Virus record (IMG/VR): IMGVR_UViG_3300021963_000737
Span: 1 to 21,893 of that record
Origin: a virus
Reading direction: 5' to 3' (one strand)
Length of the DNA stretch: 21,893 nucleotides
Position 1 is the stretch's first letter. Every line of letters begins with the position of its first letter. The notes beneath the pieces were generated by a model. The model was not told the origin of the DNA, ran no database searches, and saw only the letters and a program-made list of their open reading frames with translations. Shown piece by piece: positions 1 through 16,104 of this stretch. A program made the translations under genes and the position numbers.

Positions 1-627
1 AATCAGTGGAGTTGGTTAACAGTTGTAGTTGATGCAGAAAATCAACAATCACATTTTTACTTAAATGGAACAGAAGTAGATTCTAAAGCAGGCTTTGGAA
101 GTAGTTCTCCTTGGAAGTATGAAGGAAAGCTTAAAACATATAGAAATAATAATATTTATTTAGGAACATCTACTACATTACCTGACGAAAGTACTCACAA
201 GTACTTTAAAGGGGATATTGCAAAAGTAGTAGCCTGGAATAGAGCACTAACTCCGGAAGAAGTTATTTCCGTACATAAAGAGTTGCCTAATCAAGGAATA
301 GTTCTTAACTTAGACTTTAATAATGAATACTCTGAACTTGTATACAACAATACTGAATATAGAACTGAAAATATCAGAGTACCAAACTCTATTCTACCTC
401 ATAGAGTTCCTGGGCGTTTTCGTTGTTTGCCTCATGTAGATGAAGGACTAGTTAACGGAGTTTGGGCTAAAGGTAAAACAACAGCTCAAAACGAAGAGAG
501 ATACGTATTACAGATGCAACAAGGAAAAGTTGATTATAAACAAGACGGAATTAATAATGTAAGTTATAAGTTCTTAGGAGAACAAAAATTAACTCCTTGG
601 GCTAAAATTTTAAATATAGAGTTATGA
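1..627 (+). CDS. LamG-domain protein, 3' part (probable tail adhesin or glycan-binding protein)
   Basis: The frame is open from the first base, so the true start lies upstream; 208 residues are visible. Residues about 1-93 look like the end of a LamG/concanavalin-A-like fold: WSWLTVVVDAENQQ, then a strand containing FYLNGTEVD, a NIYLGTST strand, and the typical closing DIAKVVAWNRALTPEEV helix. Such domains bind carbohydrates and are common in phage adhesins and surface proteins. The remaining ~115 residues (from about LNLDFNNEY, including PHRVPGRFRCLPHVDEG and a KQDGINNVSYKF strand) form a separate domain. From memory it resembles the C-terminal segment of some bacterial and phage galactosyltransferase-like proteins; this is low certainty. 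An internal TTG at 283 is not a credible start because the LamG fold is upstream of it. The stop overlaps the next gene by 4 bases (ATGA), implying coupled translation with the radical SAM gene. Confidence 0.8.
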   Translation, partial: NQWSWLTVVVDAENQQSHFYLNGTEVDSKAGFGSSSPWKYEGKLKTYRNNNIYLGTSTTLPDESTHKYFKGDIAKVVAWNRALTPEEVISVHKELPNQGIVLNLDFNNEYSELVYNNTEYRTENIRVPNSILPHRVPGRFRCLPHVDEGLVNGVWAKGKTTAQNEERYVLQMQQGKVDYKQDGINNVSYKFLGEQKLTPWAKILNIEL

Positions 628-2063
628 ACAAAGAGAAAAATGAGTTAACAGTCCTCAGAGAAGAGTTAAATAAAACTGGTTGTGGCTTCTGTGCAGCAAA
701 ATGGACACAAGTTACAATACACCTACAGATGGGAGAAACTCACTCTTGTCACCACCCTAGAACACATAAAATACCGGTAGCAGAGTTAGTAAGGAATCCT
801 TCTGCACTACATAATACAAAGTACAAGAAAGAACGTAGAAAAGAGATGCTAGAGGGTAAAAGACCTTCTGAGTGTGACTATTGTTGGAATGTAGAAGACA
901 ACTCAAAAGAATTCTCAGATAGAATTTATAAGTCAAATGAACCATGGTCTAAACCGCATTTAGAAGAGATTATAAACTCTGATTGGAGAAAAGACTACAA
1001 CCCTAGATACGTAGAAGTAGCTTTTTCAAATGTTTGTAATTTTAAATGCTCTTACTGTGGACCTTCTTTCTCATCTCAATGGGTACAAGAGTTAAAGAAA
1101 CACGGAGCATATCCAACATCTACAAAATTTAATGATTTAAAATGGGTTGAAGAGCAAGGTAGAATGCCATTTAATCATGGGGACCCTAACCCATACTTAG
1201 AGGCATTTTGGAAATGGTGGCCAGACTTATATAGGGATCTACATACATTCCGTATCACAGGAGGAGAGCCTTTATTAGCAAAAGATACATGGCAGGTATT
1301 AGATTATATTATTAATGAAGAAAAACCTAACAGAAACCTTAACTTAGGAATTAACTCTAACCTCGGAGTGCCTGATGAGTTGATAGATCAACTTATTGAA
1401 AAGATCCAAATTATTGAGAACGATAGTAAAGTTAAGGAACTGGTACTGTATACATCAATTGATACATGGGGTAACCATGCAGACTATATCCGTAATGGAA
1501 TGGACTATACAAGGTTTAAAAAGAATGTAGAAAAAATATTAGAAAACTGTAAAAGAGTTTCAGTTGTGTTTATGTCTACGTTTAATGCTTTATCTGTATT
1601 CAGGTACAAAGAGATGTTAGCATTTGCATACAATTTAAAAAAGCGCTTTAATAGCCCAGTACGTTACTGGAACCCGGTAGTGATGGTAGATTCATCTTAC
1701 CTAAGACATCCAGCACACCAAACTGTTCAATTACTTCCCCAGGAGTATAAAGAGTTGATCTTAGACGCTGCTAAATTCTGTGATGAATTACGCTACGTAA
1801 ATAAAGTAGAAAGCGAACAGTGGCAACCTTGGCATACAGGTTTTACAGATATCGAAACCGATAAAATTAAACGTATTGCAGACTGGATGTCAGCTCCTCA
1901 GGATCCTTTAATATTGGCTAGAAACAGAGAAGATTTTTATAAGTTCTTTACTGCACACGATAAACGAAGAGGAACTAATTTTGTAGAAACATTCCCACAA
2001 TTAGCTACATTTTTTAACGACTGTAAAGACGCAATGAATGAATTTAATCGCACACAGGGGTAA
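624..2063 (+). CDS. Twitch-type radical SAM enzyme
   Basis: This is a 479-residue protein with the CxxxCxxC radical SAM signature at C138-C142-C145 (CNFKCSYC), which holds the 4Fe-4S cluster that cleaves S-adenosylmethionine. The SAM-contacting motif ITGGEPLL lies at about 211-218. Two further cysteine groups occur before the core: CGFC at 20-23 with C42, and CDYC at 84-87. They could bind an auxiliary cluster or zinc. Proteins of this layout are usually named 'twitch domain-containing radical SAM protein' and occur in many marine phages; their substrate is not established. The start ATG overlaps the stop of the LamG gene, so the two are probably translated together. Substrate candidates, by context only, are a sugar intermediate of the downstream cassette or the upstream adhesin. 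The family call is firm and the reaction is unknown. Confidence 0.9.
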   Translation: MNKEKNELTVLREELNKTGCGFCAAKWTQVTIHLQMGETHSCHHPRTHKIPVAELVRNPSALHNTKYKKERRKEMLEGKRPSECDYCWNVEDNSKEFSDRIYKSNEPWSKPHLEEIINSDWRKDYNPRYVEVAFSNVCNFKCSYCGPSFSSQWVQELKKHGAYPTSTKFNDLKWVEEQGRMPFNHGDPNPYLEAFWKWWPDLYRDLHTFRITGGEPLLAKDTWQVLDYIINEEKPNRNLNLGINSNLGVPDELIDQLIEKIQIIENDSKVKELVLYTSIDTWGNHADYIRNGMDYTRFKKNVEKILENCKRVSVVFMSTFNALSVFRYKEMLAFAYNLKKRFNSPVRYWNPVVMVDSSYLRHPAHQTVQLLPQEYKELILDAAKFCDELRYVNKVESEQWQPWHTGFTDIETDKIKRIADWMSAPQDPLILARNREDFYKFFTAHDKRRGTNFVETFPQLATFFNDCKDAMNEFNRTQG

Positions 2064-2460
2064 TCTTAACGGACCGAACCCAGAACAGGAAAATAACCCA
2101 GAGTATTTAGCAATAGCTATAGAACAGGGGTATGACGTAGAGGTAGATGTTTGGTACAAAAACCATAAGCTATTCTTAGGTCATGATTTTCCCGTATACG
2201 AAACCTCTTTAGAATTCCTTAAAAAAGATTTTATTTGGGCTCATGCTAAAAACTTAGAAGCTCTTCACTATTTATTAGAGAATGACGTACATTGCTTCTG
2301 GCATGAAGAAGATCAACATACGTTAACAAGTAGAGGTTATATTTGGACTTATCCAAATATGGCTGTAACTTCTAAGAGTATAATTGTAGATTTACAACCG
2401 CAAGTAAAATTAAGACCGTGTTATGGAATTTGTTTCGACTGGACACCTATCCAAAAATAG
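2038..2460 (+). CDS. Short GDPD-like (PLC-like TIM barrel) phosphodiesterase
   Basis: This 140-residue protein begins IAHRGN, matching the HRG signature of glycerophosphodiester phosphodiesterases. It keeps the other expected acid and base positions: E18 in the PEQEN segment (equivalent to PENT), E35 and D37 in the strand DVEVDVW, and H49-D50 in LGHD. It is clearly shorter than ordinary GDPD enzymes (about 240 residues or more). A compact version of this sort is known to me from capsule and surface-glycan loci, where it probably acts on a phosphodiester or sugar phosphate; that assignment is inference. The start lies 26 bases inside the radical SAM gene, and the HRG motif sits only five residues from the start, as in full-length family members, so the start is credible. 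The end overlaps the next frame by 38 bases. Confidence 0.72.
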   Translation: MNLIAHRGNLNGPNPEQENNPEYLAIAIEQGYDVEVDVWYKNHKLFLGHDFPVYETSLEFLKKDFIWAHAKNLEALHYLLENDVHCFWHEEDQHTLTSRGYIWTYPNMAVTSKSIIVDLQPQVKLRPCYGICFDWTPIQK

Positions 2461-3067
2461 TAGAATAGCTATATGCTTATTTGGGAATATAATCGATTCT
2501 TCCAAACTAACTAAAGGGTTAAAACTACTTACATACAACATACCAGACATATCTATCGATTACTTTGCGAATACGTATCAACAGCTCGATGAAAGTTTTG
2601 TAGACAGTTTAAATATAAAAAACTACCAAACACAGCCTAACTTAAACACTTACGAACCTTCACTAGAAGACGCATTTAGTCTAGCTAGAGTTAGTATACT
2701 GAAGCAACGATTTGAAGCCGATTGTAAATTCAAATACGACGCAGTTATTGCTGTAAATACAAGCTCAGAAATAAGGTATACAGTTTTATCAACAAATCAA
2801 GAAATAACTGATCAAACAGTATATGGATTTGGATACTACATGGACACCTCCGTAATGCAATTTAGGTTAGATAACCTAGTATGGTTCTCAGATTCAAACA
2901 CCTTTGACACACTTTCTCGAATCTATTTTGACTTCGCTAAGAATCCACTACTATCTTTAAAAGAAGAAGTAGCTTGGCATTCTTACATAAAGAAACATAA
3001 CATCAACATAACACCTTTGGAATATAGAGCAGTTATTCTTGATGCTAAAAAAAGACCCTTAATCTAG
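2423..3067 (+). CDS. Divergent glycosyltransferase-like protein (HTW family, copy 1)
   Basis: This is a 214-residue protein of uncertain function. Its layout matches the two proteins at 3068-3886 and 7786-8439. It has an N-terminal hydrophobic strand (RIAICLFGN, about 14-22), a segment IDYFANTY where the others have the FVHTW motif, a central helix before YDAVIAV (about 105-111), and a C-terminal helical region. The pattern 'strand - xVHTW - YDxVxxxRxDL' recalls capsule-locus glycosyltransferase-like proteins. This copy has lost both the HTW and the acidic DL motif, so it may be inactive or have a different acceptor. The only ATG before the conserved core is at 2423, 38 bases inside the GDPD-like gene. 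The first 13 residues have no counterpart in the paralogues and may simply reflect this overlap. It directly abuts the next gene (TAGATG). Confidence 0.5.
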   Translation: MEFVSTGHLSKNSRIAICLFGNIIDSSKLTKGLKLLTYNIPDISIDYFANTYQQLDESFVDSLNIKNYQTQPNLNTYEPSLEDAFSLARVSILKQRFEADCKFKYDAVIAVNTSSEIRYTVLSTNQEITDQTVYGFGYYMDTSVMQFRLDNLVWFSDSNTFDTLSRIYFDFAKNPLLSLKEEVAWHSYIKKHNINITPLEYRAVILDAKKRPLI

Positions 3068-3886
3068 ATGCAAAATAAACCTAAAATAGCAGTATGTATC
3101 GCGGGTGAAATAAGAACCGGAATAGAAGACTTTAAAGTATTTTCTGAATTCTTTAAACATTACGACATAGATGTATTTGTACATACTTGGAATGTGGTAA
3201 CTTCCGACAATTTAAAATTTGGAGAGGACATCTGGAAGGGGAACGAAGGGTATGATACAAAAGGTATTCAACAGAAAATAGCAGAACTTTACAAACCTGT
3301 TAGGATGCTAGTAGAAGATCCTTTAGAGAAAACTGATACATTAGCTTTTGAATCAATGATGTACAGTATATACAGAGCTGATTTACTTAGACAGGATTAC
3401 GAATTAGAGACTAACAAAATATACGACATAGTAGTAAAGTACAGGTTTGATTTAATATTTGAAAAAGGAATTACATTCCCACCTTTTCAAGTAGAACCAA
3501 GAACGTTATACTATGTCAACCGTAACCAAGGATGTACTCCTCAAGACTGCGGCAGACATGGGTTAAGTGATTTATGGTTTTATGGAGATTCTAATACAAT
3601 GTCTACTGTGTGTAGTATGTATAATTTCTTTAGGTATAAATTAAAACCTTTGAGAAATCCGAATTACTTTACGGGAGTAGAGTTAAAAAGAGATATGAGC
3701 TTTGCAACTTTTTCACCTAGTCAACTTTATTACAACCAATGTATAAAATATAATATCAGACCTGTAGACATCTCAATGATGGATAATAACTATAATAGAC
3801 AGAGTCTACATAGAACTGCTGTAAAGCATTTAGACCCTTATGATAATTTTAAAGAAATAAACGAATACTACAACTCACATGTCTAA
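3068..3886 (+). CDS. Glycosyltransferase-like protein (HTW family, copy 2)
   Basis: This 272-residue protein has an N-terminal Rossmann-type strand KIAVCIAGEIRTG (6-18), then DIDVFVHTWN (33-42), a helix SMMYSIYRADLLRQDYE (about 96-112) and YDIVVKYRFDL (119-129). The last motif, an acidic residue after a basic stretch, has the position of a nucleotide-sugar-binding DxD-like element in GT-A enzymes. This arrangement is seen in putative glycosyltransferases of capsule and lipopolysaccharide loci. The donor and acceptor cannot be read from sequence. It is the best preserved of three related proteins in this operon and starts immediately after the stop of copy 1. Its last eight bases overlap the next gene. 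No signal peptide or membrane segment is visible, so it should be cytoplasmic. Confidence 0.6.
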   Translation: MQNKPKIAVCIAGEIRTGIEDFKVFSEFFKHYDIDVFVHTWNVVTSDNLKFGEDIWKGNEGYDTKGIQQKIAELYKPVRMLVEDPLEKTDTLAFESMMYSIYRADLLRQDYELETNKIYDIVVKYRFDLIFEKGITFPPFQVEPRTLYYVNRNQGCTPQDCGRHGLSDLWFYGDSNTMSTVCSMYNFFRYKLKPLRNPNYFTGVELKRDMSFATFSPSQLYYNQCIKYNIRPVDISMMDNNYNRQSLHRTAVKHLDPYDNFKEINEYYNSHV

Positions 3887-4826
3887 AGATCTAACACTTA
3901 TAACTTTTGGAGATAGCTGGACATGGGGAAGTGAACTTCGCAAACCAGGTCTGAAAAAATCAAAAGAAGATTGGGATACTTCTAATGATGAGTATCGTCT
4001 AAAAAACGTCTGGCCTACCTACTTATCAGAACAGTTAGGCTTTACTAAACATATTAATAGATCATTCCCAGGAGCATCTAACGATATGATAGTAAGACAT
4101 TTAGTAAACTATATACTCCAAGAGTATTTAAAACCTGGTAAGCCAACTGATGACTTATTTTTAACAATAGGATTAACCTCTCCAGATAGAGTAGATCTTT
4201 ATTTTAAGAATGAACAAATATTAGGAGACCAAGGTTGGATGACACTTTGGCCGTATATGGATATAGATTACGGAGATAAGCTTCGTAATAACTTTGCTAA
4301 GACATACTCTTTATATTTTGCAAACCCAGAAGAGTTTGTATACCGCTATATAAATCAAATACACTACCTGCAGACTTTTTTAACTGCTAATAATATTAAG
4401 CATTTAATATTTCAATCCTTTTATCAAACATTTGGGCATGTTCATATAACTGAATGGGAGGATAAACCACATGCATTTACGTACAAGTCTATTATGAACC
4501 AATCGTACTGGGAGTTAATTCACCCGGTAACCTTTATGAATAAGAATGTACCTGCTCATAGTTTTCATGCACATGTAAAACTTAAATCTATGCTAACAGG
4601 AGAAGAAGGTTTTAAGGTACAACATCCTTCTGAGATAGGACATAAATGGTGGGCAGATCATATGAAAGAATATATAGTAAAAAATAAACTTTTAAAAAGT
4701 ATTCCAAAACTACATACCTACGACTTTTCAGATCCAGTAAAGACACTGCCGGTTACATTGAAAAACACAGGGCCTGTAGAACAAGATATAGAAACAAAAA
4801 AACCAGTTTTTAGAACATTAATATGA
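3879..4826 (+). CDS. SGNH/GDSL-like hydrolase, copy A
   Basis: This 315-residue protein opens with LITFGDSWTWG, the block I GDS motif with the presumed nucleophile S13. Block II is seen as SFPGASND (G65, N68). Block III carries GLTSPDR instead of the usual GxND, a replacement that I associate with phage-type members. The C-terminal catalytic block is HPSEIGH (H249 to H255). SGNH enzymes remove acyl groups from sugars, lipids or glycans, and in this glycan cassette a deacetylase or deacylase role is the natural guess. There is no signal peptide, so it acts in the cytoplasm or on the virion. It overlaps the preceding gene by 8 bases and the following paralogue by 4 (ATGA). Confidence 0.72.
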   Translation: MSKDLTLITFGDSWTWGSELRKPGLKKSKEDWDTSNDEYRLKNVWPTYLSEQLGFTKHINRSFPGASNDMIVRHLVNYILQEYLKPGKPTDDLFLTIGLTSPDRVDLYFKNEQILGDQGWMTLWPYMDIDYGDKLRNNFAKTYSLYFANPEEFVYRYINQIHYLQTFLTANNIKHLIFQSFYQTFGHVHITEWEDKPHAFTYKSIMNQSYWELIHPVTFMNKNVPAHSFHAHVKLKSMLTGEEGFKVQHPSEIGHKWWADHMKEYIVKNKLLKSIPKLHTYDFSDPVKTLPVTLKNTGPVEQDIETKKPVFRTLI

Positions 4827-5641
4827 GAACACTTTATTCACTCGGAGATAGCTTTAGCGTAGGAGTAGGTTTAGATATTAGATCTCTACCTCATAAAACT
4901 TACTCTGGAATTTTAGCAAGTAACCATGAGTCTACTCTAAAACTATTAGGAAGAGCCGGATGTGATATGTTTACAATATACCTTCAGGTTCGAAAATTAA
5001 TTAAACTCAGTAAAGGTAGAGACGAACTTGCAATAATAAGCCTTACTTGGCCTGATAGGTTTTCTTTTGCAACCGAAGAAGTACACTACCTGGACGTTGA
5101 TCTAAAAAATGTAGATTACCTCTCTTACGTACCATATAGAGATGCTTTAGCATGTAACCCTGATATTATACCAGCTTTCGATTTTTCAAACAATCCTAAA
5201 ATATTTAGCAATACATTAGTAGATATCGACGGATTACTAAACGGAAAGATGTATAATAAAGACGGTATGCATGTTTTAAGTAGAGAGCATAGAAAAGCTT
5301 TAGAGTACTATATTACGTATCTACACAACCACCACATAAAACGAGAACAAGATACAGGGTTGGCATTGTATATGCATACGCTTTTAAAGCAAGCTAATAT
5401 CCCTCACGTATTTCTAGACCCGATAGGGTATTTCCTTCACGAACCTCATAATAAACTGACAACACTTATAGACAAGAAGCACTTTATTATACACGACTGG
5501 TACAAGTTCGCAGAAAAATACCCGGACGTACAAGGAACAAGCCATGTTAATGAAGAAGGTCATCAAGTAGTTTCACAAATTATACAAGAACATTTAGATA
5601 AACATAATATAATTGAAGAATGGAAAACGCCCCTTATATAG
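4823..5641 (+). CDS. SGNH/GDSL-like hydrolase, copy B
   Basis: This 272-residue protein starts TLYSLGDSFSVG with the presumed nucleophile S10. Block III is SLTWPDR, parallel to GLTSPDR of the upstream copy, again without the canonical GxND asparagine. The C-terminal block is HVNEEGH (H241 to H247), with exactly the spacing found in copy A. The two genes are therefore adjacent, diverged paralogues of one fold rather than two unrelated hydrolases. The pair could act as a heteromer or on two acyl positions of one glycan; this is inference. The start is fixed by the ATGA overlap with copy A, and the 3' end overlaps the nucleotidylyltransferase start by 22 bases. Confidence 0.68.
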   Translation: MRTLYSLGDSFSVGVGLDIRSLPHKTYSGILASNHESTLKLLGRAGCDMFTIYLQVRKLIKLSKGRDELAIISLTWPDRFSFATEEVHYLDVDLKNVDYLSYVPYRDALACNPDIIPAFDFSNNPKIFSNTLVDIDGLLNGKMYNKDGMHVLSREHRKALEYYITYLHNHHIKREQDTGLALYMHTLLKQANIPHVFLDPIGYFLHEPHNKLTTLIDKKHFIIHDWYKFAEKYPDVQGTSHVNEEGHQVVSQIIQEHLDKHNIIEEWKTPLI

Positions 5642-6348
5642 TTTTTCCTATGCTAGGAGAAGGTTCTAGGTTTGTAACTGCAGGTTACACCACACCTAAG
5701 TATTTATTAGAATACAAAGGTAAGACGATGTTAGAACACGCGGTAGATACGTTAGGAGTTAATGGAGAACTTATTTTTATAATAAGAGGAGATCATGATC
5801 AAGCGTATAAAGACCAGATTGATAGACTAACTAAAAAGTATGATGCTAATCTTCTAATAGTTAACCGAAAGACGCAAGGAGCAGCGGAAACAGTATCACT
5901 TATCCGTCCGTACATCCAAGATCTTTCCCGTCCATTAATAACAGTTAATGCTGATCAGTATATGCACTGGAATGGAAAAAAGTTTGAAGAATTACTTGCT
6001 TCTGATCCGGAAAGTTCGTATATTGTTACACATACCGACTCTTCCCCTAAATGTAGTTATGTGAGGTTAGAAGGAGATGAAATTGTAGAAGTACGAGAAA
6101 AGATCGTAATAAGTAATACTGCTACAGTCGGAATATACCATTGGGCATCTACTAAAGATTTTTTAGAAGATGTAGACCAGATGATGGAAGAAGGTGTTAA
6201 AGATAACAATGAATATTATATAGCACCGGTTTATAACTACACTATTAAGAAAGGAAAGAAAGTCAAGATGTATCATATACCTCCAGGACAATTCTACCCA
6301 GTAGGAACACCAGAAGATTTTGAATATTTTAAAAACTTAGAACTATAA
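5620..6348 (+). CDS. Sugar-phosphate (or related) nucleotidylyltransferase
   Basis: This 242-residue protein has the N-terminal nucleotide-binding signature of NTP transferases: GEGSRFVTAGYTTPKYLL, about residues 13-30, with the conserved R17 and K27. It is followed by KTQGAAET (84-91) and the metal-binding VNADQ strand with D112. NNEYYIAPVYN and a terminal FYPVGTPEDFEYF segment are typical of short, core-only sugar-1-phosphate nucleotidylyltransferases without a C-terminal beta-helix. It should activate a sugar phosphate, or a similar phosphorylated compound, as an NDP or CDP derivative; the nucleotide and sugar cannot be told. It starts 22 bases within the SGNH gene and is joined to the cupin gene by a 1-base TAATG overlap, a strong hint that the two products act on the same intermediate. 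Confidence 0.88.
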   Translation: MENAPYIVFPMLGEGSRFVTAGYTTPKYLLEYKGKTMLEHAVDTLGVNGELIFIIRGDHDQAYKDQIDRLTKKYDANLLIVNRKTQGAAETVSLIRPYIQDLSRPLITVNADQYMHWNGKKFEELLASDPESSYIVTHTDSSPKCSYVRLEGDEIVEVREKIVISNTATVGIYHWASTKDFLEDVDQMMEEGVKDNNEYYIAPVYNYTIKKGKKVKMYHIPPGQFYPVGTPEDFEYFKNLEL

Positions 6349-6674
6349 TGAAAGCAGGTAGAATAGAAGATTTTAAGAAAGGATGGTTTATTGGAAACTT
6401 TGAACCAAGTCTACTCAAAGCAGATTTTGAAGTAGCAATTCAACATTACAAGAAAGGAGAAGTTCATAACGATCACTTTCATAAAAAAACAACCGAGTAC
6501 AATGTAGTACTGGACGGTGTTATTAAGATTAACGAACAAGAGTTTGTAGAGGGAGATATCTTTATTATAAAACCTTATGTAGTTAGCCAGGCATCTTACT
6601 TAACGGACGTAAGGTTGTTAGTAGTAAAGACAGAAAGTGACCCAAAAGATAAATACGAATTTGAATTAATATGA
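6348..6674 (+). CDS. Single-domain cupin, partner of the nucleotidylyltransferase/RLP pair
   Basis: This 108-residue protein contains a complete cupin motif 1, G37-x5-H43-x-H45-x4-E50-x6-G57, which normally binds a divalent metal. Motif 2 is recognisable as G69...P76 but its metal-binding histidine position is Q81, so metal coordination should be altered. Small cupins act as isomerases, epimerases, lyases or sensors. In Rhodospirillum rubrum a cupin works with a RubisCO-like protein in methylthioadenosine metabolism, a precedent for the neighbour seen here. It is coupled on both sides: TAATG with the nucleotidylyltransferase and ATGA with the RubisCO-like gene. The fold assignment is strong and the reaction is unknown. 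Confidence 0.85.
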   Translation: MKAGRIEDFKKGWFIGNFEPSLLKADFEVAIQHYKKGEVHNDHFHKKTTEYNVVLDGVIKINEQEFVEGDIFIIKPYVVSQASYLTDVRLLVVKTESDPKDKYEFELI

Positions 6675-7789
6675 ATATAGTAATAGATAAAATACCAGCA
6701 GACCATTTTTTAGTAGAGTACTATCTTGAATCAAGAACTACCTTATACGAAGCAGCATATGCTTTAGCAGTTGGTCAAAGCATAGGAAACCCTTCTGTAC
6801 GTAATGTATTTGAAACTCCTGAATTAATTGCAAACCATTGTGCTAAGATAGTAGACATAAAAGAACGTTTAGATTCTAAAAATAAAGGAACAGTAGCTAT
6901 TGCATTCCCTGCAGCAAATATAAACTGGGAAGAGGATGGTATCTCACATTTAGTATGTAACATAATGGGAGGGCAGACTGATATTGATATTATAGAGAAA
7001 TGTCACATTACTGATATTGAATTACAGAACCTATACCCAATCTTAAAACCTAAATTTGGAATAACAGGTATTAGAGAAAAGACAGGTCAGTACGAAAAGC
7101 CGCTACTAGGATGTATACTTAAACCTAAAATTGGTTTAAAACCTACAGAGATTGTCTCTATTGTAAAAGATATGATTGAAGGAGGAGCAGATTTTATTAA
7201 AGAAGATGAAATTATGTCTAACCCAATTTTCTGTAGTTATGAAGATAGATTACCTCTTATTAAAGAGATATTACCTGACAACGTAATATACCTAGCAACA
7301 TGTAATTCAGATCCACACAAGTTAGTAGACAGAGCTAAAAAAGTACACGAGTATGGATCAAACGGTATTCATATCAACCTTTGGAGTGGGTTAGGAGCTT
7401 ACGCTTCAGTTAGACAACTAGACTTACCTCTTGTAATGCATTATCAGAAAAGTGGAGATAAGGTGATTACCCATATCAATAACCCTTATCGAATTGACTG
7501 GAGAGTTTTATGTAAGTTAGCTGCAATTAGCGGCATTGATACTATACATGCCGGAATGTGGGGCGGTTACTTAAGCGACGAACCTACATATCTACAAGAG
7601 GTTATGGATATATTAAGAGAGAGAAATGTACTACCGGCTTTAAGTTGTGGTATGAATGCTCAATTAATTCCAAAAGTAACTGAAAAGTTTGGATATGACT
7701 ACTTAGCTAATGTAGGAGGAGCAGTACACTCACATAAAGACGGTATCAAACCAGCTGTACAAGATTTAAGAAAAGCTATAGATAAATGA
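6671..7789 (+). CDS. RubisCO-like protein (form IV type, non-carboxylating)
   Basis: This 372-residue protein has the whole RubisCO large-subunit layout. The N-terminal alpha/beta domain includes HFLVEYYLES and EAAYALAVGQSIGN. The barrel then follows with KPKIGL (K151, K153, matching K175/K177 of plant RubisCO) and GGADFIKEDE (K177, D179, E180, matching carbamylated K201 and metal ligands D203/E204). N97 matches N123, H293 matches H327, S325 matches S379, and G349-G350 fall in the phosphate-binding GGG loop. The loop-6 catalytic K334 is replaced by Y300 (GMWGGYLSDE). H294 and R295 appear to be Q259 and K260, and E60 aligns to G35. It should therefore form an enolate on a sugar-phosphate-like substrate but not fix CO2. 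Known RLPs act as enolases, isomerases, decarboxylases or transcarboxylases on MTA- or apionate-derived compounds; which applies here is open. It is coupled by ATGA overlaps to the cupin upstream and the GT-like gene downstream. Confidence 0.92.
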   Translation: MNIVIDKIPADHFLVEYYLESRTTLYEAAYALAVGQSIGNPSVRNVFETPELIANHCAKIVDIKERLDSKNKGTVAIAFPAANINWEEDGISHLVCNIMGGQTDIDIIEKCHITDIELQNLYPILKPKFGITGIREKTGQYEKPLLGCILKPKIGLKPTEIVSIVKDMIEGGADFIKEDEIMSNPIFCSYEDRLPLIKEILPDNVIYLATCNSDPHKLVDRAKKVHEYGSNGIHINLWSGLGAYASVRQLDLPLVMHYQKSGDKVITHINNPYRIDWRVLCKLAAISGIDTIHAGMWGGYLSDEPTYLQEVMDILRERNVLPALSCGMNAQLIPKVTEKFGYDYLANVGGAVHSHKDGIKPAVQDLRKAIDK

Positions 7790-8439
7790 TCGCAGTAATT
7801 GTATCGGGTAAATTAAAAGGACTTTCAGATAACTTTCCGAAGTTTATAGAATCCTTACATGAACCGGTACAATGTTTTGTGCACACCTGGGATACAGAAG
7901 AAAATAGTAGATGGTTAAATAAACTTAACAGGTACGGTGATATAGTCGATTTAGAGTATGTAACAGAACCGCCGATAGACAATAAGAAGTTTGCGATACT
8001 TCACTCTACGTATCAAGCAGTAAGTTTAATACCTGATTTAAACAAGTATAGCACTATAATAAAGTTTAAACCTGATCTAGATACCGATACTATTATATAT
8101 GATAAGAATATTACAAAATATTTTCAAGAAGCTACTTTACACACCTATCCGCTTCTTAAAGGAAAAACAAAAGAAGATTTTATTTACGGTAGGGTATTGT
8201 ATAAAACACTAGACGAAAGAATGTTTAGCACATTCCCAAAAGCAATAGAGACGTTATTTAAAAGATCATACGGGGATTATATTACAGATCTACAAATGAT
8301 AGATAATTTTTTAATAAAAAAATACGGACTCTACTACGAAGGGAGCATCCTCTGGACTAATTATATTAGAGAAAGAGGTTTAGATATTATACAAGACCTA
8401 ACACTCCAATTACCAAATTGCAAAGTTATAAACAATTAA
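7786..8439 (+). CDS. Glycosyltransferase-like protein (HTW family, copy 3)
   Basis: This 217-residue protein is related in layout to the products of 3068-3886 and 2423-3067. It begins MIAVIVSGKLKG, has QCFVHTWD at 29-36 and IIKFKPDLD at 91-99, parallel to the HTW and YRFDL motifs of copy 2. A C-terminal helical part includes FLIKKYGLYYEGSILWTNYI. The acidic PDLD element sits where a GT-A type enzyme binds its nucleotide-sugar donor. Function as a glycosyltransferase is inferred from this pattern and from the neighbouring sugar nucleotidylyltransferase. The ATGA overlap with the RubisCO-like gene makes it the last gene of the coupled cassette; a 4-base gap follows before the next start. Confidence 0.55.
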   Translation: MIAVIVSGKLKGLSDNFPKFIESLHEPVQCFVHTWDTEENSRWLNKLNRYGDIVDLEYVTEPPIDNKKFAILHSTYQAVSLIPDLNKYSTIIKFKPDLDTDTIIYDKNITKYFQEATLHTYPLLKGKTKEDFIYGRVLYKTLDERMFSTFPKAIETLFKRSYGDYITDLQMIDNFLIKKYGLYYEGSILWTNYIRERGLDIIQDLTLQLPNCKVINN

Positions 8440-8443
8440 TTAT

Positions 8444-8704
8444 ATGAGCGAAGAAAAAGTTTTTTTAACAGAACAAGAATTATTAGATCTAAAACTAGTA
8501 CAGGAGCAGAAAGTACGTTTAAATGAAGAGCTAGCTGCTATTAGTTTAGCAGAGTTTGAAATTAAAAATAGAAAACAAGCAGCAGAAGCTTATTATAATT
8601 CTCTTAAAGAATTAGAAGCTAGGGTTGTAACACAGATGGGAGAAAATTACGGAGCTGGGAGATTAAATGTTAATTTAGAGACAGGAGAGATTTTACCAGA
8701 ATAG
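8444..8704 (+). CDS. Small coiled-coil protein of unknown function
   Basis: This 86-residue protein is charged and largely helical. Residues about 8-62 (ELLDLKLVQEQKVRLNEELA and onward, rich in E, K, A and L) fit a coiled coil. A short beta-like tail LNVNLETGEILPE closes the protein. Small helical proteins of this kind sit next to structural genes in many T4-like marine phages, but I do not recognise a function. It starts 4 bases after the cassette stop with no visible ribosome-binding purine run. It is followed by the first substantial non-coding gap of the window, so it is probably the last gene of the upstream transcription unit. Confidence 0.6.
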   Translation: MSEEKVFLTEQELLDLKLVQEQKVRLNEELAAISLAEFEIKNRKQAAEAYYNSLKELEARVVTQMGENYGAGRLNVNLETGEILPE

Positions 8705-8740
8705 TCAATATTTCCAAAATATGTTTCAAATGTTCCTACC

Positions 8741-8752
8741 TATTTATTTAAG
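8741..8752 (+). promoter_or_regulatory. Candidate late promoter element, distal copy
   Basis: TATTTATTTAAG lies in the 131-base gap before the sheath gene, the longest gap in the window. The same 12-mer recurs exactly 57 bases downstream. The TATTTAT core is found in every gap of 34 bases or more in the tail region. The gap is otherwise AT-rich with no clear hairpin or small gene. Confidence 0.45.
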
Positions 8753-8797
8753 TACGGTAACTATATTACAAATAAAAGGGTTTTGATTTTAACAGGA

Positions 8798-8809
8798 TAT
8801 TTATTTAAG
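8798..8809 (+). promoter_or_regulatory. Candidate late promoter element before the tail sheath gene
   Basis: Second exact copy of TATTTATTTAAG, ending 26 bases before the sheath ATG. That spacing suits a -10-like box with a short leader. The leader reads AACCCAACTAACAAATAATAAGAGAC with no strong Shine-Dalgarno sequence, apart from a weak GAG. Confidence 0.5.
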
Positions 8810-8835
8810 AACCCAACTAACAAATAATAAGAGAC

Positions 8836-10581
8836 ATGGCAGAAACATTAATTTCACCAGGTGTATTAACGAGAGAAAATGACATTTCGTTTATTCAACC
8901 AGCAGCCGCTGCTGTAGGCGCAGCTTTCATAGGACCTGCAGTAAAAGGTCCAGTAGAGCAACCTACTGTAGTAACATCTTACGGTCAATATCAAAGATTG
9001 TTCGGAACCACTTTTCAATCTGGTTCTAACTCTTTTGAATTTTTAACTTCAATTGCAGTAAAGAGCTATTTTGAGCAAGGCGGTAACACGGCATTAGTAA
9101 CAAGAGTTGTATCTGGATCATTCACAGCAGCATCCAACACAACTATTACAGCTTTAACAGGAGCTGCACCATTTACATTAGAGACAATCGGTAAAGGTGC
9201 AATCTATAATAATGCTAAATCAGCATCTACTATCCAAGAAAATCCAGACGGTTCATTAGCTACTGGTTCTGCGGATAACGTTAGATGGGAGATTGGTAAT
9301 ATTAACAACCAAAGCGGTACATTCTCATTGTTAGTTCGTAGAGGTGATGATAGTAGAAAAAATAAGATCATCTTAGAAACATTTAACGACTTATCTTTAG
9401 ATCCAAATTCAGAAAACTATATTGAGAAAGTAATCGGTAACCAAGCTGTTAGCAAAACAACAGAAGGTTCTGAAGTATTTGTAACAACAAATGGTGAGTA
9501 CGTAAACAGATCAAACTATATTAGAGTAGCTTCTGTAGCTAGACAAACACCTAACTACTTAAGCACAGACGGTATTACAGTTAATAAAACAGCAGCAGGA
9601 GTTTCTTATTCAGGTTCATTACCAACAGCTAAGTCAGGTTCATTCTACGGAGCTACAGGTAACCTATACGGCCCTCGTGCAAGCAAATTCTTTAAGAATA
9701 TTAACAGTGTAGATACTCAAGGTATTACAGCAGCTTGTTATGCAGATGCTATTTCAATCTTAGGTAATAAAGACGAATATCAATTCAATATTATATCTGC
9801 TCCAGGTCTTATCTACTCAATCGGTACTCATAAAGTTCAATTAGATTCAATTATCTCATTGGCAGAGACTAGAGGAGATGCTATTGCAGTAATCGATCCA
9901 CAAACATTTGCATCAACAGTTAGTAACGTAACAGCAACAGCAGGTACAGTTAACAGTTCTTATGCAGCTGCTTACTGGCCTTGGTTACAAACACAATCTG
10001 CAACTGGTAAGAACGAATGGGTTCCAGCTTCTACAGTTATCCCAGGTGTTTACGCCTTCACAGATAGCGCAGCAGCACCATGGTTTGCACCAGCAGGTTT
10101 AGTTAAAGGAGGTATTCCTAACGTAATCCAAGCAGAACGTAAAGTAAGCCGTGAGCAACGCGATACTTTATACCGCGCTAATGTTAACCCAATTGCTACA
10201 TTCCCTGGACAAGGTATTGCAGTATATGGTCAAAAGACTTTACAGAAAAAAGCTTCAGCTTTAGATAGAGTAAACGTACGCCGTTTATTAATCGAATTGA
10301 AACGCTTCATCGGTAGTCAAGCTAACAACATTGTATTCGAACAAAATACAATCGCTACTCGTAACAAATTCTTAGCAATTGTTAACCCATACTTAGAATC
10401 AGTAGTACAGAGACAAGGTCTTTATGCATACCGTATAGTAATGGATGATTCTAACAACTCTGCTGATGTAGTAGATAGAAACCAAATCGTAGGACAGGTA
10501 TTTATCCAACCAGCAAAAACTGCAGAATTTGTAGTACTTGATTTCACAATTGAACCAACAGGTGCGACATTTGTAGCATAA
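8836..10581 (+). CDS. Contractile tail sheath protein
   Basis: This 581-residue protein opens with the sheath hallmark SPGVLTRENDIS (7-18), then AVGAAFIGPAVKGPVEQPT, a SYGQYQRLFG segment and SYFEQGGNTALVTRVV. The C-terminal domain (RLLIELKRFIGSQANNIVFE onward, VNPYLESVVQRQGLYAYRIV, QVFIQPAKTAEFVVLDFTIE) is the conserved inner part that packs on the tube and carries the linker strands. T4 gp18 is 659 residues, so this member is somewhat shorter in the outer domains. It defines the phage as a myovirus. It is preceded by two copies of the candidate late promoter and followed after 37 bases by the tube gene, the classical order. Confidence 0.97.
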   Translation: MAETLISPGVLTRENDISFIQPAAAAVGAAFIGPAVKGPVEQPTVVTSYGQYQRLFGTTFQSGSNSFEFLTSIAVKSYFEQGGNTALVTRVVSGSFTAASNTTITALTGAAPFTLETIGKGAIYNNAKSASTIQENPDGSLATGSADNVRWEIGNINNQSGTFSLLVRRGDDSRKNKIILETFNDLSLDPNSENYIEKVIGNQAVSKTTEGSEVFVTTNGEYVNRSNYIRVASVARQTPNYLSTDGITVNKTAAGVSYSGSLPTAKSGSFYGATGNLYGPRASKFFKNINSVDTQGITAACYADAISILGNKDEYQFNIISAPGLIYSIGTHKVQLDSIISLAETRGDAIAVIDPQTFASTVSNVTATAGTVNSSYAAAYWPWLQTQSATGKNEWVPASTVIPGVYAFTDSAAAPWFAPAGLVKGGIPNVIQAERKVSREQRDTLYRANVNPIATFPGQGIAVYGQKTLQKKASALDRVNVRRLLIELKRFIGSQANNIVFEQNTIATRNKFLAIVNPYLESVVQRQGLYAYRIVMDDSNNSADVVDRNQIVGQVFIQPAKTAEFVVLDFTIEPTGATFVA

Positions 10582-10594
10582 TTTTTAAAACAGA

Positions 10595-10605
10595 TATTTA
10601 TATAA
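10595..10605 (+). promoter_or_regulatory. Candidate late promoter element before the tail tube gene
   Basis: TATTTATATAA in the 37-base gap between sheath and tube genes, 13 bases before the tube ATG. The leader ends AACAGATAATAAAATG, an A-rich, non-Shine-Dalgarno type. The short spacing means that, if it is a promoter, the transcript leader would be very short; it could instead be a translation-related element. Confidence 0.38.
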
Positions 10606-10618
10606 AACAGATAATAAA

Positions 10619-11104
10619 ATGGCAGTATTAGATTCAAACGAAATAATGTTCAGAGCCTTCGAACCGAAGGTACAGAATAGATTTATCCTATATAGTGAGG
10701 CTATACCAGCTTTCATGGTAAAAGCAGTAACTGCTCCTTCATTCACAGATGAAGAAGTTAAGTTAGATCACATTAACACTTACAGAAAGATTCGTGGTAA
10801 GAGAAACTGGGAGAACATGGATATGACTTTATATGATCCAATTAACCCTTCAGGTGCACAAGCAGTAATGGACTGGGCACGTGCTTCTTACGAGTCTGTA
10901 ACTGGTAGAGCTGGTTATTCAGATTTCTACAAGAAAGATTTAACTTTGAATCTTTTAGGACCAGTAGGTGATATCGTATCAGAGTGGATCGTTAAAGGTG
11001 CATTTATCGTAAACATGGCTCAAGGTTCTTTGGACTGGGGTACTAGCGATGGTGTTGAATTAACAATCACTGTAGCGATGGACTACTGCGTATTGAACTA
11101 CTAA
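10619..11104 (+). CDS. Tail tube protein (T4 gp19-like)
   Basis: This 161-residue protein is close to the 163 residues of T4 gp19. Recognisable family features are EPKVQNRFILYSEAIPAFMV near the start, TYRKIRGKRNWENMDMTLYDP, a DWARASYESVTGRAGYSDFYKKDLTL segment and the closing strands WIVKGAFIVNMAQGSLDWG and VELTITVAMDYCVL. The protein polymerises as hexameric rings inside the sheath and forms the channel for DNA. It lies directly after the sheath gene and just before a strong terminator, so both can be made from one short, abundant late transcript. Confidence 0.95.
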   Translation: MAVLDSNEIMFRAFEPKVQNRFILYSEAIPAFMVKAVTAPSFTDEEVKLDHINTYRKIRGKRNWENMDMTLYDPINPSGAQAVMDWARASYESVTGRAGYSDFYKKDLTLNLLGPVGDIVSEWIVKGAFIVNMAQGSLDWGTSDGVELTITVAMDYCVLNY

Positions 11105-11131
11105 TAATCTGCCTTATATTAATAAAAGAAG

Positions 11132-11157
11132 CCCGGAAAGAAATTTCCGGGTTTTTT
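11132..11157 (+). terminator. Strong intrinsic terminator after the tail tube gene
   Basis: A perfect 8-base-pair stem CCCGGAAA/TTTCCGGG encloses a GAAA tetraloop and is followed at once by TTTTTT. A-rich sequence before the stem can extend pairing into the T-run. It lies 28 bases after the tube stop codon. It is the only clear rho-independent terminator that I find in the window. Confidence 0.93.
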
Positions 11158-11183
11158 GTTGGTTCAAAAAGTTATTTTTCATA

Positions 11184-11191
11184 TATTTATA
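11184..11191 (+). promoter_or_regulatory. Candidate late promoter element restarting transcription before the chaperone gene
   Basis: TATTTATA, 28 bases before the ATG at 11220 and 26 bases after the terminator T-run. Its position fits re-initiation for the chaperone/tape-measure unit. Nearby GTTATTTTTC and GTTATTTAAA flank it. On the minus strand it reads TATAAATA, the T4 late consensus, but all genes here are on the plus strand. Confidence 0.48.
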
Positions 11192-11219
11192 GGAAATAAC
11201 GTTATTTAAAATCAAATTT

Positions 11220-11960
11220 ATGGATCAACCACAAAAATTCCCTACAGAGATTGTAGACCTACCTTCTAAAGGGTTACTTTACCCAGAAGAACATCCATTA
11301 GCATCAGGTACTATTGAAATGAAGTATATGACAGCTAAGGAAGAGGATATCTTAACCAACCAAAGCTTTATTGAGAGAGGAGTAGTAATCGACAAGTTAT
11401 TACAGTCTCTAATTGTAACTAAGTTTAACTATGATGATCTTTTAGTTGGAGATAAGAATGCTATATTAGTAGCAGCACGTATCTTAGGTTACGGTAAAGA
11501 TTACGAATTTAACTACCAAGGACAAAAAGAAAATGTAGATTTATCTTTAATTGAAAATAAGGTTTTTGATGAGAGCTTATTCAAAGATAGAAAGAATGAA
11601 TTTACTTACGAATTACCTGCTACAGGAAACGTAGTTACTTTCAAACTTTTAACTCATGGAGATGAACAAAAAATCCAACAAGAGATAAAAGGTCTTAAGA
11701 AAATTAACAAAGACGCTTCACCAGACTTATCAACAAGGTTAAAACACATAATCATTGGTGTTAATGGAGCTACTGATTCTAAAAGTATTAGAGATTTCGT
11801 AGATAATCATTTCTTAGCAAGAGACTCTCGTGCATTTAGAAAACATATCTCAGAATTTCAGCCAGACGTAGATTTGAAATTCTATCCAGAAAATGGACCA
11901 GAAGGAGGGGTTGACATTCCAATCGGGGTTAACTTTCTTTGGCCTGACGCCAACGTATAG
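11220..11960 (+). CDS. T4 gp26-like tail/baseplate assembly chaperone
   Basis: This 246-residue protein starts with PTEIVDLPSKGLLYPEEHPL and contains MKYMTAKEEDILTNQSFIERG (about residues 35-56), then DKLLQSLI and DLLVGDKNAILVAARILGYG. These features are typical of the T4 baseplate-hub assembly/gp26 family (Pfam T4_baseplate-like). It ends VDIPIGVNFLWPDANV. The place between tube and tape measure is where tailed phages keep their tail assembly chaperone (lambda G and G-T). Its last 83 bases overlap an open +1 register that continues as the next gene. Together they look like a frameshift pair. The gene is preceded by a TATTTATA element and has the non-Shine-Dalgarno leader AAATCAAATTTATG. Confidence 0.8.
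   Translation: MDQPQKFPTEIVDLPSKGLLYPEEHPLASGTIEMKYMTAKEEDILTNQSFIERGVVIDKLLQSLIVTKFNYDDLLVGDKNAILVAARILGYGKDYEFNYQGQKENVDLSLIENKVFDESLFKDRKNEFTYELPATGNVVTFKLLTHGDEQKIQQEIKGLKKINKDASPDLSTRLKHIIIGVNGATDSKSIRDFVDNHFLARDSRAFRKHISEFQPDVDLKFYPENGPEGGVDIPIGVNFLWPDANV
11878..11960 (+). other. Candidate programmed frameshift window (+1 or -2) in the tail chaperone pair
   Basis: The +1 register is open from 11878, just after an in-frame TGA at 11875, and the zero frame ends with TAG at 11958. Any switch must therefore happen inside these 83 bases. Candidate slip sites are GGA GGG GTT at 11904-11912, where a glycyl-tRNA on GGG can re-pair exactly on GGG one base on, and CTT TGG near the 3' end, which shares the CUU-U slip of the prfB frameshift. 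A late switch near CCT GAC GCC AAC GTA TAG would best keep the conserved FLWPD end joined to YRVAIFNQ. Which site is used, if any, cannot be decided here. Confidence 0.5.
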
Positions 11961-12198
11961 AGTTGCTATTTTCAACCAGATTCATGAGATAGTATTTCAC
12001 GGAAAAGGAGGATATGATCACGATACAGTATATGCAATGCCTATATGGTTACGTAACTTTACCTTCCAAAAGATGAATGAATTCTACGAAAAAGAACAGG
12101 AAGAAATAAATAAATCTAAAAGTAAGACACCTTCTAAAGCAGCTCCGAAAGGACCTGCAGTAAGAAAACCGTCTTATAGTGCTAAGGCTCGCCCATAA
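11893..12198 (+). CDS. Downstream part of tail chaperone (G-T-like extension) or separate small tail protein
   Basis: Read from its own ATG it would be 101 residues, but the first ~22 lie over the end of the preceding gene and look unlike a natural N-terminus. The convincing protein starts near YRVAIFNQIHEIVFHGKGGY and continues DTVYAMPIWLRNFTFQKMNEFYEKEQEE. A basic, Ser/Pro/Ala-rich tail (about 75-101) follows. Sequences with 'MPIWLR' after an 'IHEIVFHGxGG' helix follow the FWP end of gp26-type proteins in other marine phages as I remember them. The ATG at 11893 has no ribosome-binding site. I favour production as a fusion with the upstream protein by +1 (or -2) frameshifting, giving about 325 residues. 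An independent start or an assembly indel remain possible. Confidence 0.6.
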   Translation: MDQKEGLTFQSGLTFFGLTPTYRVAIFNQIHEIVFHGKGGYDHDTVYAMPIWLRNFTFQKMNEFYEKEQEEINKSKSKTPSKAAPKGPAVRKPSYSAKARP

Positions 12199-12208
12199 AG
12201 CGAGCTTT
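12184..12208 (+). terminator. Weak hairpin over the stop codon of the chaperone extension
   Basis: AAGGCTCG pairs with CGAGCTTT across a 9-base loop that contains the TAA stop; seven pairs are Watson-Crick and one is G-U. Only three T residues follow, interrupted by AC, so termination would be weak. It could slow readthrough into the tape measure or protect a 3' end. Confidence 0.35.
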
Positions 12209-12211
12209 ACC

Positions 12212-12220
12212 TATTTATAT
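12212..12220 (+). promoter_or_regulatory. Candidate late promoter element before the tape measure gene
   Basis: TATTTATAT in the 42-base gap, 20 bases before the tape measure ATG and directly after the weak hairpin. The start context is CAGTTAATAAATG, again A/T-rich with no Shine-Dalgarno sequence. Confidence 0.42.
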
Positions 12221-12240
12221 CATATAAGTACAGTTAATAA

Positions 12241-15200
12241 ATGGCCGGAAACGATAATAGACAGTTAGAAGAAGCAAAAAGACTCTTACAGGAGATAAAT
12301 ACCTTAAGAGCTAGGCTTAATCAACAACCGTTAACAATGACGGATGCTGATGCAGTAGCAAATGTGCAAAGCCTTCGTAACGAACTAAGAGGAGTACAAA
12401 ATGCTTTTCAGGATGTAGATGATTCTGCAACAAGTCTCTATGATCAGGTTAGAGCAATTTCTGGTGAATTTAAGAACCAGCCAGGCGCTTTGCAGAAGAT
12501 TAGATCATCTATGAAGAAGATTACCTCTATTGCAGAAGATTTAAAACTACAAGAACAGGGTATTAAAGATCTTTCTACAAAGCAACTAGACGATTTAGCT
12601 CAAAGATTAAAAGAAAATAAAAAAATATTAGATGACGAATCAACACGTTTATTAAACGGAGAGGATTTATCAGATATTGCACAAAGAGAGGTTCAGGCTC
12701 TTCAAGATTTAATACAAGAACAAGGTGGGTTAACTAACATGACTAGAGACCAGGTAGATGCTGCTCTAGAGTTAGTTAACGTAATGGATAATCTTTCCAC
12801 AGAACAAAAAGCCGCTTTAGCTAACTATGTAGACCAAGGTAATGCATTAGGTAATATAGAGGATAAAATTAGTGCTATAAAAGAACAGCAGAAAGAAGTC
12901 AATAACTTGATGGGTGTTGGTGGTGCTGTAGTAGATGGATTGGACGGTCTAATGGGTAAACTCGGTATGAGCTCCAGTAGATTCAAAGATGCAGTATCAG
13001 AGGCTAAAGATAAAATGAAAGCAACTGCAGAAGCAATTCAATCAGGTGCTCAAAAAGGAAATAAGTTAACAGTACTAATGTCTGGCTTAGGGCCTTTAGC
13101 AAAAGGCTTTGGAGCTGCTTTATTAGATCCGTTAACTATTATCATGAAGATAGTAGATGCGTTCTTCAAATTAGATAAAGCAAGCACAGAAGTACAGCGA
13201 TTAACCGGACAAAACTCAGATTTAGTTGCAGGAGCAAATATGAGATACGCTACTTCGGTAGATTATCTTGAAACCGTAGCAGAGCTTACAAAGCAGACTG
13301 GTATGAATGCTCAAAATATATTTACACCAGATGTTATTGCAGGAGCCGCTGAATTAAAAAATACAATGGGACTTGCTGCTGACGAAGCAGGAGGTCTTGC
13401 AATGATAGCTCAGACTACAGGTGGGAATATAGATAAGACAGTCGATAGTATTGTTGCTGAAACTAGTGCTTTTAACAAAGCAAATAGATCAGCTGTATCT
13501 CAAGGACAGGTACTTAGAGACGTAGCTAAAACTTCAGATGGAATTAAAGCTTCTTTAGGAGGTAACCCTAAATTAATAGCTGCCGCTGCTACACAGGCTC
13601 GTAGATTAGGAATGGAACTTAGCCAGGTAGACGGTATTGCTAGTTCTTTATTGGACTTTGAAGATTCTATTTCAAAAGAAATGGAAGCTGAACTACTTAC
13701 AGGTAAGGACTTAAACTTAAATAAAGCTAGAGAGTTAGCTTTAAATAATGACTTAGCAGGCGTAGGTAACGAATTATTTAAGAATGCTGCTGATATCAAT
13801 GAATTCGGTAAAATGAACCGAATCCAACAAGAGTCTTATGCGGCTGCATTAGGTATGACTAGAGACCAGCTAGGTAAAATAGCTTATCAGAAGGCAATTG
13901 AATCCGGAATGACAGAAGAACAAGCCGCCGCAGCAGCGAATGTAAATGCAGAGGATATGAAGAGAGCGGAAGTACAAGAGAGAATTCAAAAATCAGTAGA
14001 TAAGTTAGCACAAGCATTTGCACCAATATTAAGTATAATAGGAGATATTGTTAACATACTTGCACCAATAGTACAGGTAGTGGGAGGAATAGTAGGATGG
14101 GTTGTAAAACTTGCATCTGAATTTAGTGTAGTAAAGTATATCCTTTATGGAATCGTCGCTATAATAGCAGCTCAAAAAATCGCAGGATTCTTTGGTACTT
14201 TAGTTGGAGGCGCTTCATCTTTCTTATCTTCGATAAAGAATATAGGTTCTTCATTCAGTGGAATGATGGATACAATGAAAGGCTGGGGACAGGGTATCAA
14301 AGATGCTTTTTCAGCCGGTAAATCAGGAGCAGGTAAGATAACAGAAGCTGCTAAAACGGCAACCGATGCCGCTGGACCAGTAGCAGATACTGCTTCTAAA
14401 GTTGCAGGCCCGGTAGCGGATAAAGCAACAGAAGCAGCTAAGTCTGCACAAGGTGTATCAAAAACAGCCGGTACAGGTATAAAAGAATTCTTAACAAACT
14501 TAGGAGAAGGTTTACGTAACTTAGGTAAGAAATTTGGAGATGTATTAAAAGGTATATTAGCTTTAGGATTAGCCGCAGTAGCAATTGTGGGACCTTTAGC
14601 TGGAGCAATGTTAATAATTAAAGACGTACCTGCCGCTGCAATGATTGCATTTGCTGCTTCAATTGGAGTGTTAGGTTACTCTTTAGCACAAATAGGAAAG
14701 AATGCAGGTGATGTAGGTAAAGGAGGTCTTGCTTTAATAGTAGCAGGAGCAGGTATTGCCGCAGCAGCATTTGGATTTTCACTATTAAAAGGAATTGACC
14801 CAGTAGGAATGTTAGCATTCTCAGGAGCAGTAGCTATATTAGGATTATCCTTAATTGTAATAGGAAAGAACGCAACAGATGTAATAAAAGGAGCAGCTGC
14901 AATGTTAATTGTAGGAGCTGCTATAGTCGTAGCATCATACGGACTTTCAATGTTATCAGGAATAGATCCAACATCTATGATGGTATTTGCCGGTTCGTTA
15001 ATTGCTCTTGGTTTAGCCGCTGCATTATTAGGAACAATAGCTAGTCAGGTAATGATGGGAGCAGTTGCTTTACTTGTATTAGGAGCAGCTCTAGTACCAG
15101 CCGCATATGCCTTTTCATTATTAGCAGGAGTTGATACAAGTACAATAGTAGCCTTTTCAGTAGCTTTACCTTTACTTGCATTAGCAGCAGCAGGATTAGG

Positions 15201-15849: not shown

Positions 15850-15854
15850 TTAAC

Positions 15855-15862
15855 TATTTATT
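15855..15862 (+). promoter_or_regulatory. Candidate late promoter element after the tape measure gene
   Basis: TATTTATT in the 34-base gap between the tape measure and a 72-residue gene, 21 bases before that ATG. The leader ends AAAAACAATAAAATG, nearly the same as the tube-gene leader (GATAATAAAATG). Confidence 0.42.
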
Positions 15863-16102: not shown

Positions 16103-16104
16103 TA

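Follow-up and report, generated by a model that had tools for sequence, protein, structure and literature searches.

A new clade of RubisCO-like proteins in phages, encoded in a conserved operon of sugar-nucleotide type

We report that a RubisCO-like protein (RLP) encoded by a phage is part of a real, widespread and new RubisCO-like clade, which occurs in phages with a conserved operon of sugar-nucleotide type. The protein is no lone oddity but one of a large family found in viruses and in cells. Its most likely activity is the enolisation of a phosphorylated keto-sugar or keto-acid within a pathway leading to a nucleotide-activated glycan residue. RubisCO-like proteins are a classic case of one fold taking up new chemistry, and none of the RLP examples that we compared takes part in nucleotide-sugar biosynthesis. 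With its constant set of partners, this large viral clade also offers a pathway that can be tested. A literature search, with most subscription journals and preprints outside its coverage, found no description of the clade or of the operon.

The gene and its phage setting

The window (the whole stretch of DNA analysed, a linear virus record of 21.9 kb) carries at positions 6671-7789 of the + strand an ORF for a complete 372-aa protein, whose ATG start overlaps the stop of a cupin gene. A first-pass annotation, made from the sequence alone, had placed this ORF correctly in both coordinates and strand. The protein belongs to the RubisCO superfamily, with both large-chain domains (PF00016, E=5.1e-35; PF02788, 2.7e-5) and a RubisCO fold. 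Both matches lie above the curated Pfam cut-offs, so that homology to RubisCO is far above chance; with the NCBIfam models for RubisCO, MtnW and OiaX, however, its scores remain far short of every cut-off. An AlphaFold2 model built from 40 family members (pLDDT 94.1, pTM 0.92) has as its closest PDB structure the form III RubisCO of Pyrococcus horikoshii (2cwx/2d69; TMq 0.90).

Downstream (3') of the RLP gene lie genes for a tail sheath, a tail tube and a baseplate-hub protein, and positions 9848-12015 share 74.7% nucleotide identity with the tail region of Flavobacterium phage immuto, in agreement with the phage-tail setting originally proposed. In immuto the sheath gene is preceded by tail-fibre and lysozyme genes, not by a sugar island. 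When the tail proteins of the window were compared by tblastn with the other RLP loci, no match was found; the tail setting is therefore particular to this phage group, and it is the cassette that the loci share. The first-pass annotation had pointed out that a chimera with a bacterial locus would undermine its reading. A separate IMG/VR contig matches positions 1-17786 at 99.95% and spans both RLP junctions, so that this second contig likewise links the RLP gene with phage genes, and the window is, as far as this can be tested, not a chimera. The GC content of the island (31-36%) differs too little from that of the tail genes (34-40%) to argue for a recent import, and this idea was discarded. 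A scan for promoters and terminators gave sites no more numerous than in shuffled sequences.

Since the RLP gene adjoins tail genes in the window, its product might be a non-catalytic binding or structural protein built on the RubisCO fold. We consider this very unlikely. Relatives with about 50% sequence identity still share invariant catalytic residues, and the median dN/dS of the family is 0.05 (52 pairs), which implies strong purifying selection and indicates a working protein. This agrees with the earlier argument that the surviving metal residues belong to a functional enzyme rather than to a relic. In addition, the operon partners of the RLP are enzyme families, and these recur at loci lacking the tail genes of the window.

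Active site and place within the RubisCO superfamily

Two residue numberings are used here, that of the window RLP (K151, Y300 and so on) and that of RubisCO (K175, K334 and so on). In the first numbering, the residues invariant in 82 relatives are K151, K153, K177-E178-D179-E180, Q259, S261, G262, Y300, S325, C326, G327, G349 and G350. The first-pass annotation had correctly listed K151, K153, K177, D179, E180, S325 and the phosphate loop (G327, G349) as kept, and Y300 as the replacement of the loop-6 lysine. N97 and H293, which it also listed, are not conserved in the family (Asn occurs at the former in 15 of the 82 relatives, while the latter is His in 47 and Gln in 35). Of the Gln/Lys that it described in place of the RubisCO pair H294/R295, the first (Q259) is invariant and the second, K260, is either Lys or Ser.

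In RubisCO numbering and by comparison with the reference proteins, the family retains K175, K177, K201, D203, E204, S379, G381 and G403, and nearly always G404. Equivalents of the metal-site residues K201, D203 and E204 are thus present in the alignment, as would be expected of a working metalloenzyme with predicted carbamylation of the lysine and Mg binding. Three losses are invariant (E60 to Gly, H294 to Gln and K334 to Tyr), and further replacements concern T65 (Asn), W66 (Pro), R295 (Lys or Ser) and H298 (mostly Asp). Those of E60, T65 and W66 are additions to the first-pass annotation. Within the set compared, K177 is otherwise found only in true RubisCO and Gln at position 294 is unique to the RLP family, the register near H294 being less sure for MtnW. 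In RubisCO, E60 and K334 act jointly; in the RLP family both are replaced. Judged by a residue set that includes E60, T65, W66, H294, R295, H327 and K334, the window RLP does not have the active site of a bona fide RubisCO (forms I-III). The metal and phosphate residues that remain suggest Mg-dependent enolisation of a phosphorylated keto compound, while the lost residues argue against carboxylation of ribulose bisphosphate (RuBP) and suggest a different substrate, perhaps one with a single phosphate.

That the protein is an auxiliary carbon-fixation gene product, a phage RubisCO carboxylating RuBP during infection, is therefore extremely improbable. It does share with form III RubisCO not only the fold but also K175, K177, K201, D203, E204, S379, G381, G403 and G404, including the phosphate loop and K177, otherwise confined to true RubisCO in the set, and a metagenomic study has reported carboxylase activity for a 'viral rbcL1' from soil (PMC12615777), which has 25-36% similarity to known genes and is not known to be a member of the RLP family. 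However, it is only about 26% identical to form III RubisCO, is shorter, has lost E60, H294 and K334 invariantly and T65, W66, R295 and H298 besides, and is encoded in an operon whose partners are of sugar-nucleotide type and in which no phosphoribulokinase or Calvin-cycle gene was noticed. The earlier suggestion of sugar chemistry rather than carbon fixation agrees with what the neighbouring genes indicate.

The tree (60 rows, site-mixture model, with two very long branches of a first tree left out) resolves the RLP family as one clade with support of 100/100 and a stem of 0.88. This clade is apart from forms I-III and from the MtnW, DeepYkr-type, IV-Photo and NonPhoto/OiaX references; the tree was calculated without IV-GOS, IV-AMC, IV-Aferr and IV-Global, and the separation concerns the other reference clades alone. 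Cellular RLPs form deep branches (Legionella, Azospirillum, Elusimicrobia) and also occur within the viral group. Given its substituted RuBP residues and its own clade outside forms I-III, the window RLP is, as in the first-pass annotation, a form IV RubisCO-like protein in the broad sense of a homologue with substituted RuBP active-site residues. The 2007 GOS paper listed 65 RubisCO homologues outside the known clades (PMC1821046), and these might include the RLP family.

We also compared the RLP with several form IV types. It does not group with the IV-Photo structures 1tel and 2qyg. With the MtnW/YkrW 2,3-diketo-5-methylthiopentyl-1-phosphate enolases (2zvi, 2oek) it shares the fold, the carbamylatable lysine, the metal acids and the change of E60 to Gly, but MtnW lacks K177, has a different loop 6, serves another pathway and lies in a separate clade, and the window RLP reaches only 85 and 116 bits with TIGR03332 and NF007095 against cut-offs of 513.6 and 409. 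The DeepYkr-type RLPs of the methylthioadenosine (MTA)-isoprenoid shunt (R. rubrum/R. palustris RLP1) were represented by alphaproteobacterial RLPs with cupin neighbours, standing in for the R. palustris-type RLP (3qfw) and identified as DeepYkr from their length, tree position and cupin neighbours. Here too an RLP is paired with a cupin and the carbonyl-migration chemistry is a plausible model, but E204 is His and K177 mostly Gln in these proteins.

A role in methionine or MTA salvage, either as an MtnW-like enolase or as a DeepYkr-like 5-methylthioribulose-1-phosphate isomerase working with the cupin, is unlikely. RLPs in general accept ketose monophosphates and the RLP-cupin pair is known from the MTA-isoprenoid shunt, in which the RLP moves a carbonyl and passes its product to a cupin (PMC5893883). 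Against this, the clade is separated with strong support from both MtnW and the DeepYkr-type RLPs, the cupin shows no detectable relation to the one beside a DeepYkr-type RLP (locus L173; hhalign probability 0.2%), no MtnA/MtnP-like gene was noticed nearby, and the nucleotidyltransferase is closer to sugar-phosphate types than to IspD. As the two systems differ in both their RLP clade and their cupin, the likeness is one of manner and not of membership; the specific MTA-isoprenoid combination of RLP, cupin and IspD-like enzyme was rejected on the evidence of the tree, the cupin and the nucleotidyltransferase.

An OiaX-like decarboxylase acting catabolically on a sugar-acid phosphate and feeding the host is quite unlikely. 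OiaX (NF042437) demonstrates that the RubisCO fold supports decarboxylation of beta-keto acids, and the OiaX/IV-NonPhoto proteins (3nwr) have the fold and metal residues in common with the window RLP. The latter nevertheless scores only 106.6 bits, far below the 700-bit cut-off, and falls outside their clade. They retain H294, R295 and K334, which the RLP family has lost, and belong to catabolic operons; the plasmid OiaX-type genes that we examined adjoin transporters, acid-sugar kinases and reductases, not nucleotidyltransferases.

The operon and its proposed function

In the window, four genes overlap end to start: a nucleotidyltransferase (5620-6348), a cupin (6348-6674), the RLP and the following ORF (7786-8439), which, like the upstream genes described below, are on the + strand. 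The nucleotidyltransferase (242 aa, phrog_3980) is of sugar-phosphate type (PF00483, 1.8e-6), and its family profile has as top PDB match 4evw, an NDP-sugar pyrophosphorylase (1.5e-34). The cupin (phrog_24762, 4.5e-28) is a small single-domain protein of 108 aa with no close characterised relative. The ORF overlapping the RLP stop has no Pfam or PHROG match and no relatives at other RLP loci. The first-pass annotation, which had placed the RLP between a cupin and a glycosyltransferase-like gene, had given the latter name to this ORF.

Further partners lie upstream. A 140-aa mini-GDPD-like protein (2038-2460), 3 kb upstream of the nucleotidyltransferase gene, carries HRG, EN, ExD and HD motifs; residues H6, R7, G8, E18, N19, E35, D37, H49 and D50 are invariant in 23 sequences. 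The similarity of its profile to GDPDs covers the first 50 residues, with an E-value somewhat biased by one full-length GDPD in the profile. A protein of GT-A type (3068-3886; model pLDDT 80) finds GT6-type galactosyl/GalNAc-transferases as its top PDB matches (E 8e-7), with TM values of only 0.4-0.5, so that its assignment as a glycosyltransferase is weak. A family search identified a second member (2423-3067) with 17% identity to the first. The island also includes genes that are not core partners: a radical SAM protein (624-2063; PF04055, 1.3e-7), present in 18 of 111 viral loci, and two SGNH/GDSL-like ORFs (3879-4826 and 4823-5641; the first matching PF19547 at 2.8e-9 and, weakly, GDSL), which recur in 24 and 19. 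The window and its nearest relatives among the matches listed (L003, L005 and L105) have the stretches with radical SAM, GDPD, cupin and RLP genes in common.

Conservation was assessed in these 111 viral loci, taken from among the matches listed, and in 23 loci from a genome collection. The nucleotidyltransferase is found near the RLP in 103 viral and 19 genome loci. The cupin lies within 3 kb in 86 viral loci (abutting in 76), and the order nucleotidyltransferase-cupin-RLP is observed in 73, with the mini-GDPD next in 43 of these. After dereplication to below 80% identity, 45 viral loci had enough flank, and the nucleotidyltransferase and cupin lie within 3 kb of the RLP in 44 and 37 of them, respectively. 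The more distant flanks (beyond 4 kb, about 1,010 kb in all) contain no member of either family. The mini-GDPD (78 viral and 12 genome loci) and the glycosyltransferase-like family (74 viral loci) are frequent, with looser linkage (density ratios 5.5 and 3.2). The pairing extends to cells (SAR11, Crocinitomicaceae, Legionella and Elusimicrobia), with the RLP and nucleotidyltransferase genes side by side in SAR11 and Legionella. In Legionella, a LicD gene directly adjoins the RLP; LicD enzymes transfer phospho-groups from nucleotide-linked donors. Other recurrent neighbours include an NAD epimerase, a DegT aminotransferase, an FkbM methyltransferase, a phosphomannomutase-like HAD protein and a carbamoyltransferase. 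One such HAD protein (L019, 11253-11957; PF03332, 3e-20; phrog_29277) is encoded just downstream of the RLP, and a cluster of similar length lies directly 3' of the RLP in several other loci.

With these partner genes, the pathway most likely ends in a nucleotide-activated product used for a glycan of the surface or the virion, and we consider it rather probable that the RLP is a metal-dependent enolising enzyme that feeds a nucleotide-activated residue into a glycan. From the fold, the residues and the operon we infer the following steps. The RLP would bind a keto-sugar or keto-acid that is phosphorylated, perhaps only once, and remove a proton next to the carbonyl to give a Mg-bound enediolate, which would yield an isomerised, epimerised or decarboxylated product without addition of CO2. 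The cupin may act on this product or on its precursor. The nucleotidyltransferase would couple a phosphorylated product to a nucleotide, and an enzyme of glycosyltransferase-like or LicD-like type would place the residue on a host-surface or virion glycan. The neighbourhood could instead reflect co-transfer of unrelated surface genes, but this is at odds with how strictly the RLP is paired with the nucleotidyltransferase.

The surface-sugar islands of cyanophages (for example, Bellamy, SynMITS9220M01, S-SM2 and S-CAM9) resemble the proposed glycan pathway in combining a related cupin and/or mini-GDPD with nucleotidyltransferases and glycosyltransferases, but they have no RLP, and in some its place is taken by phosphoheptose isomerase and aldolase genes. 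Around the cupin and mini-GDPD relatives of cultured cyanophages lie genes for phosphoheptose isomerase, aldolase, sugar kinase, nucleotidyltransferase and glycosyltransferase.

Carriers of the RLP and published 'viral rbcL' genes

Scans of IMG/VR identified at least 171 relatives with patterns derived from the query and at least 356 with looser family patterns; the loci inspected are a part of these (up to 80 per scan among the matches listed). The 23 loci of the genome collection include SAR11, three Legionella species, Azospirillum oleiclasticum, Elusimicrobia, Patescibacteria and archaeal MAGs; phage contigs within MAGs may account for a few of them. The RLP is present in 4 of 22 Legionella genomes and 2 of 297 Pelagibacterales genomes and is therefore a patchy accessory gene. 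Some viral RLP loci also carry genes for a late sigma factor, a DnaB-like helicase, a clamp-loader and thymidylate synthase, like T4-like phages.

No RLP was found in 50,697 records of cultured phages (tblastn with two family members, up to E 10), no PHROG family matches it, and the BFVD predicted viral structures contain no RubisCO fold (top TMq about 0.44, generic barrels). The first-pass statement that no phage RLP was known thus applies to the cultured-phage collection and to BFVD, but not to metagenomic work, in which 'viral rbcL' has been listed among genes of carbon fixation: in Great Salt Lake (PMC8506154), in landfills, there grouping with 'RbcL-like' proteins (PMC12607003), and in mining soils, there credited with activity (PMC12615777). 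RubisCO matches in viromes need not imply viral carbon fixation, a claim now in print. These published auxiliary genes might include the apparently non-carboxylating RLP family, and such calls deserve comparison with it. We give even chances to the broader proposal of a new RubisCO-fold reaction. In this view, the RLP clade, together with the cupin and the nucleotidyltransferase, would provide phages and some bacteria with a nucleotide-activated glycan or polyol-phosphate building block of a kind not seen before, used on surfaces or virions, and many of the 'viral rbcL' annotations would be this enzyme.

Several individual loci merit mention. In SAR11 single-cell genomes (loci L089, L092, L093, L094 and L096), GDPD-like, nucleotidyltransferase, RLP and second nucleotidyltransferase genes occupy similar chromosomal settings, mostly near ThyX-like and Mrp/HflKC-like genes; the arrangement resembles a variable site for surface genes. 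A contig of a 'Sphingobacteriales' MAG (L099), on which phage-like genes, PhoH-like ones among them, surround the RLP, is probably a phage contig binned as bacterial. Finally, a Ponticoccus plasmid (L154, 812-1945) encodes an extremely divergent RubisCO-like protein (branch 4.17) that adjoins a gene for a transketolase C-terminal domain.
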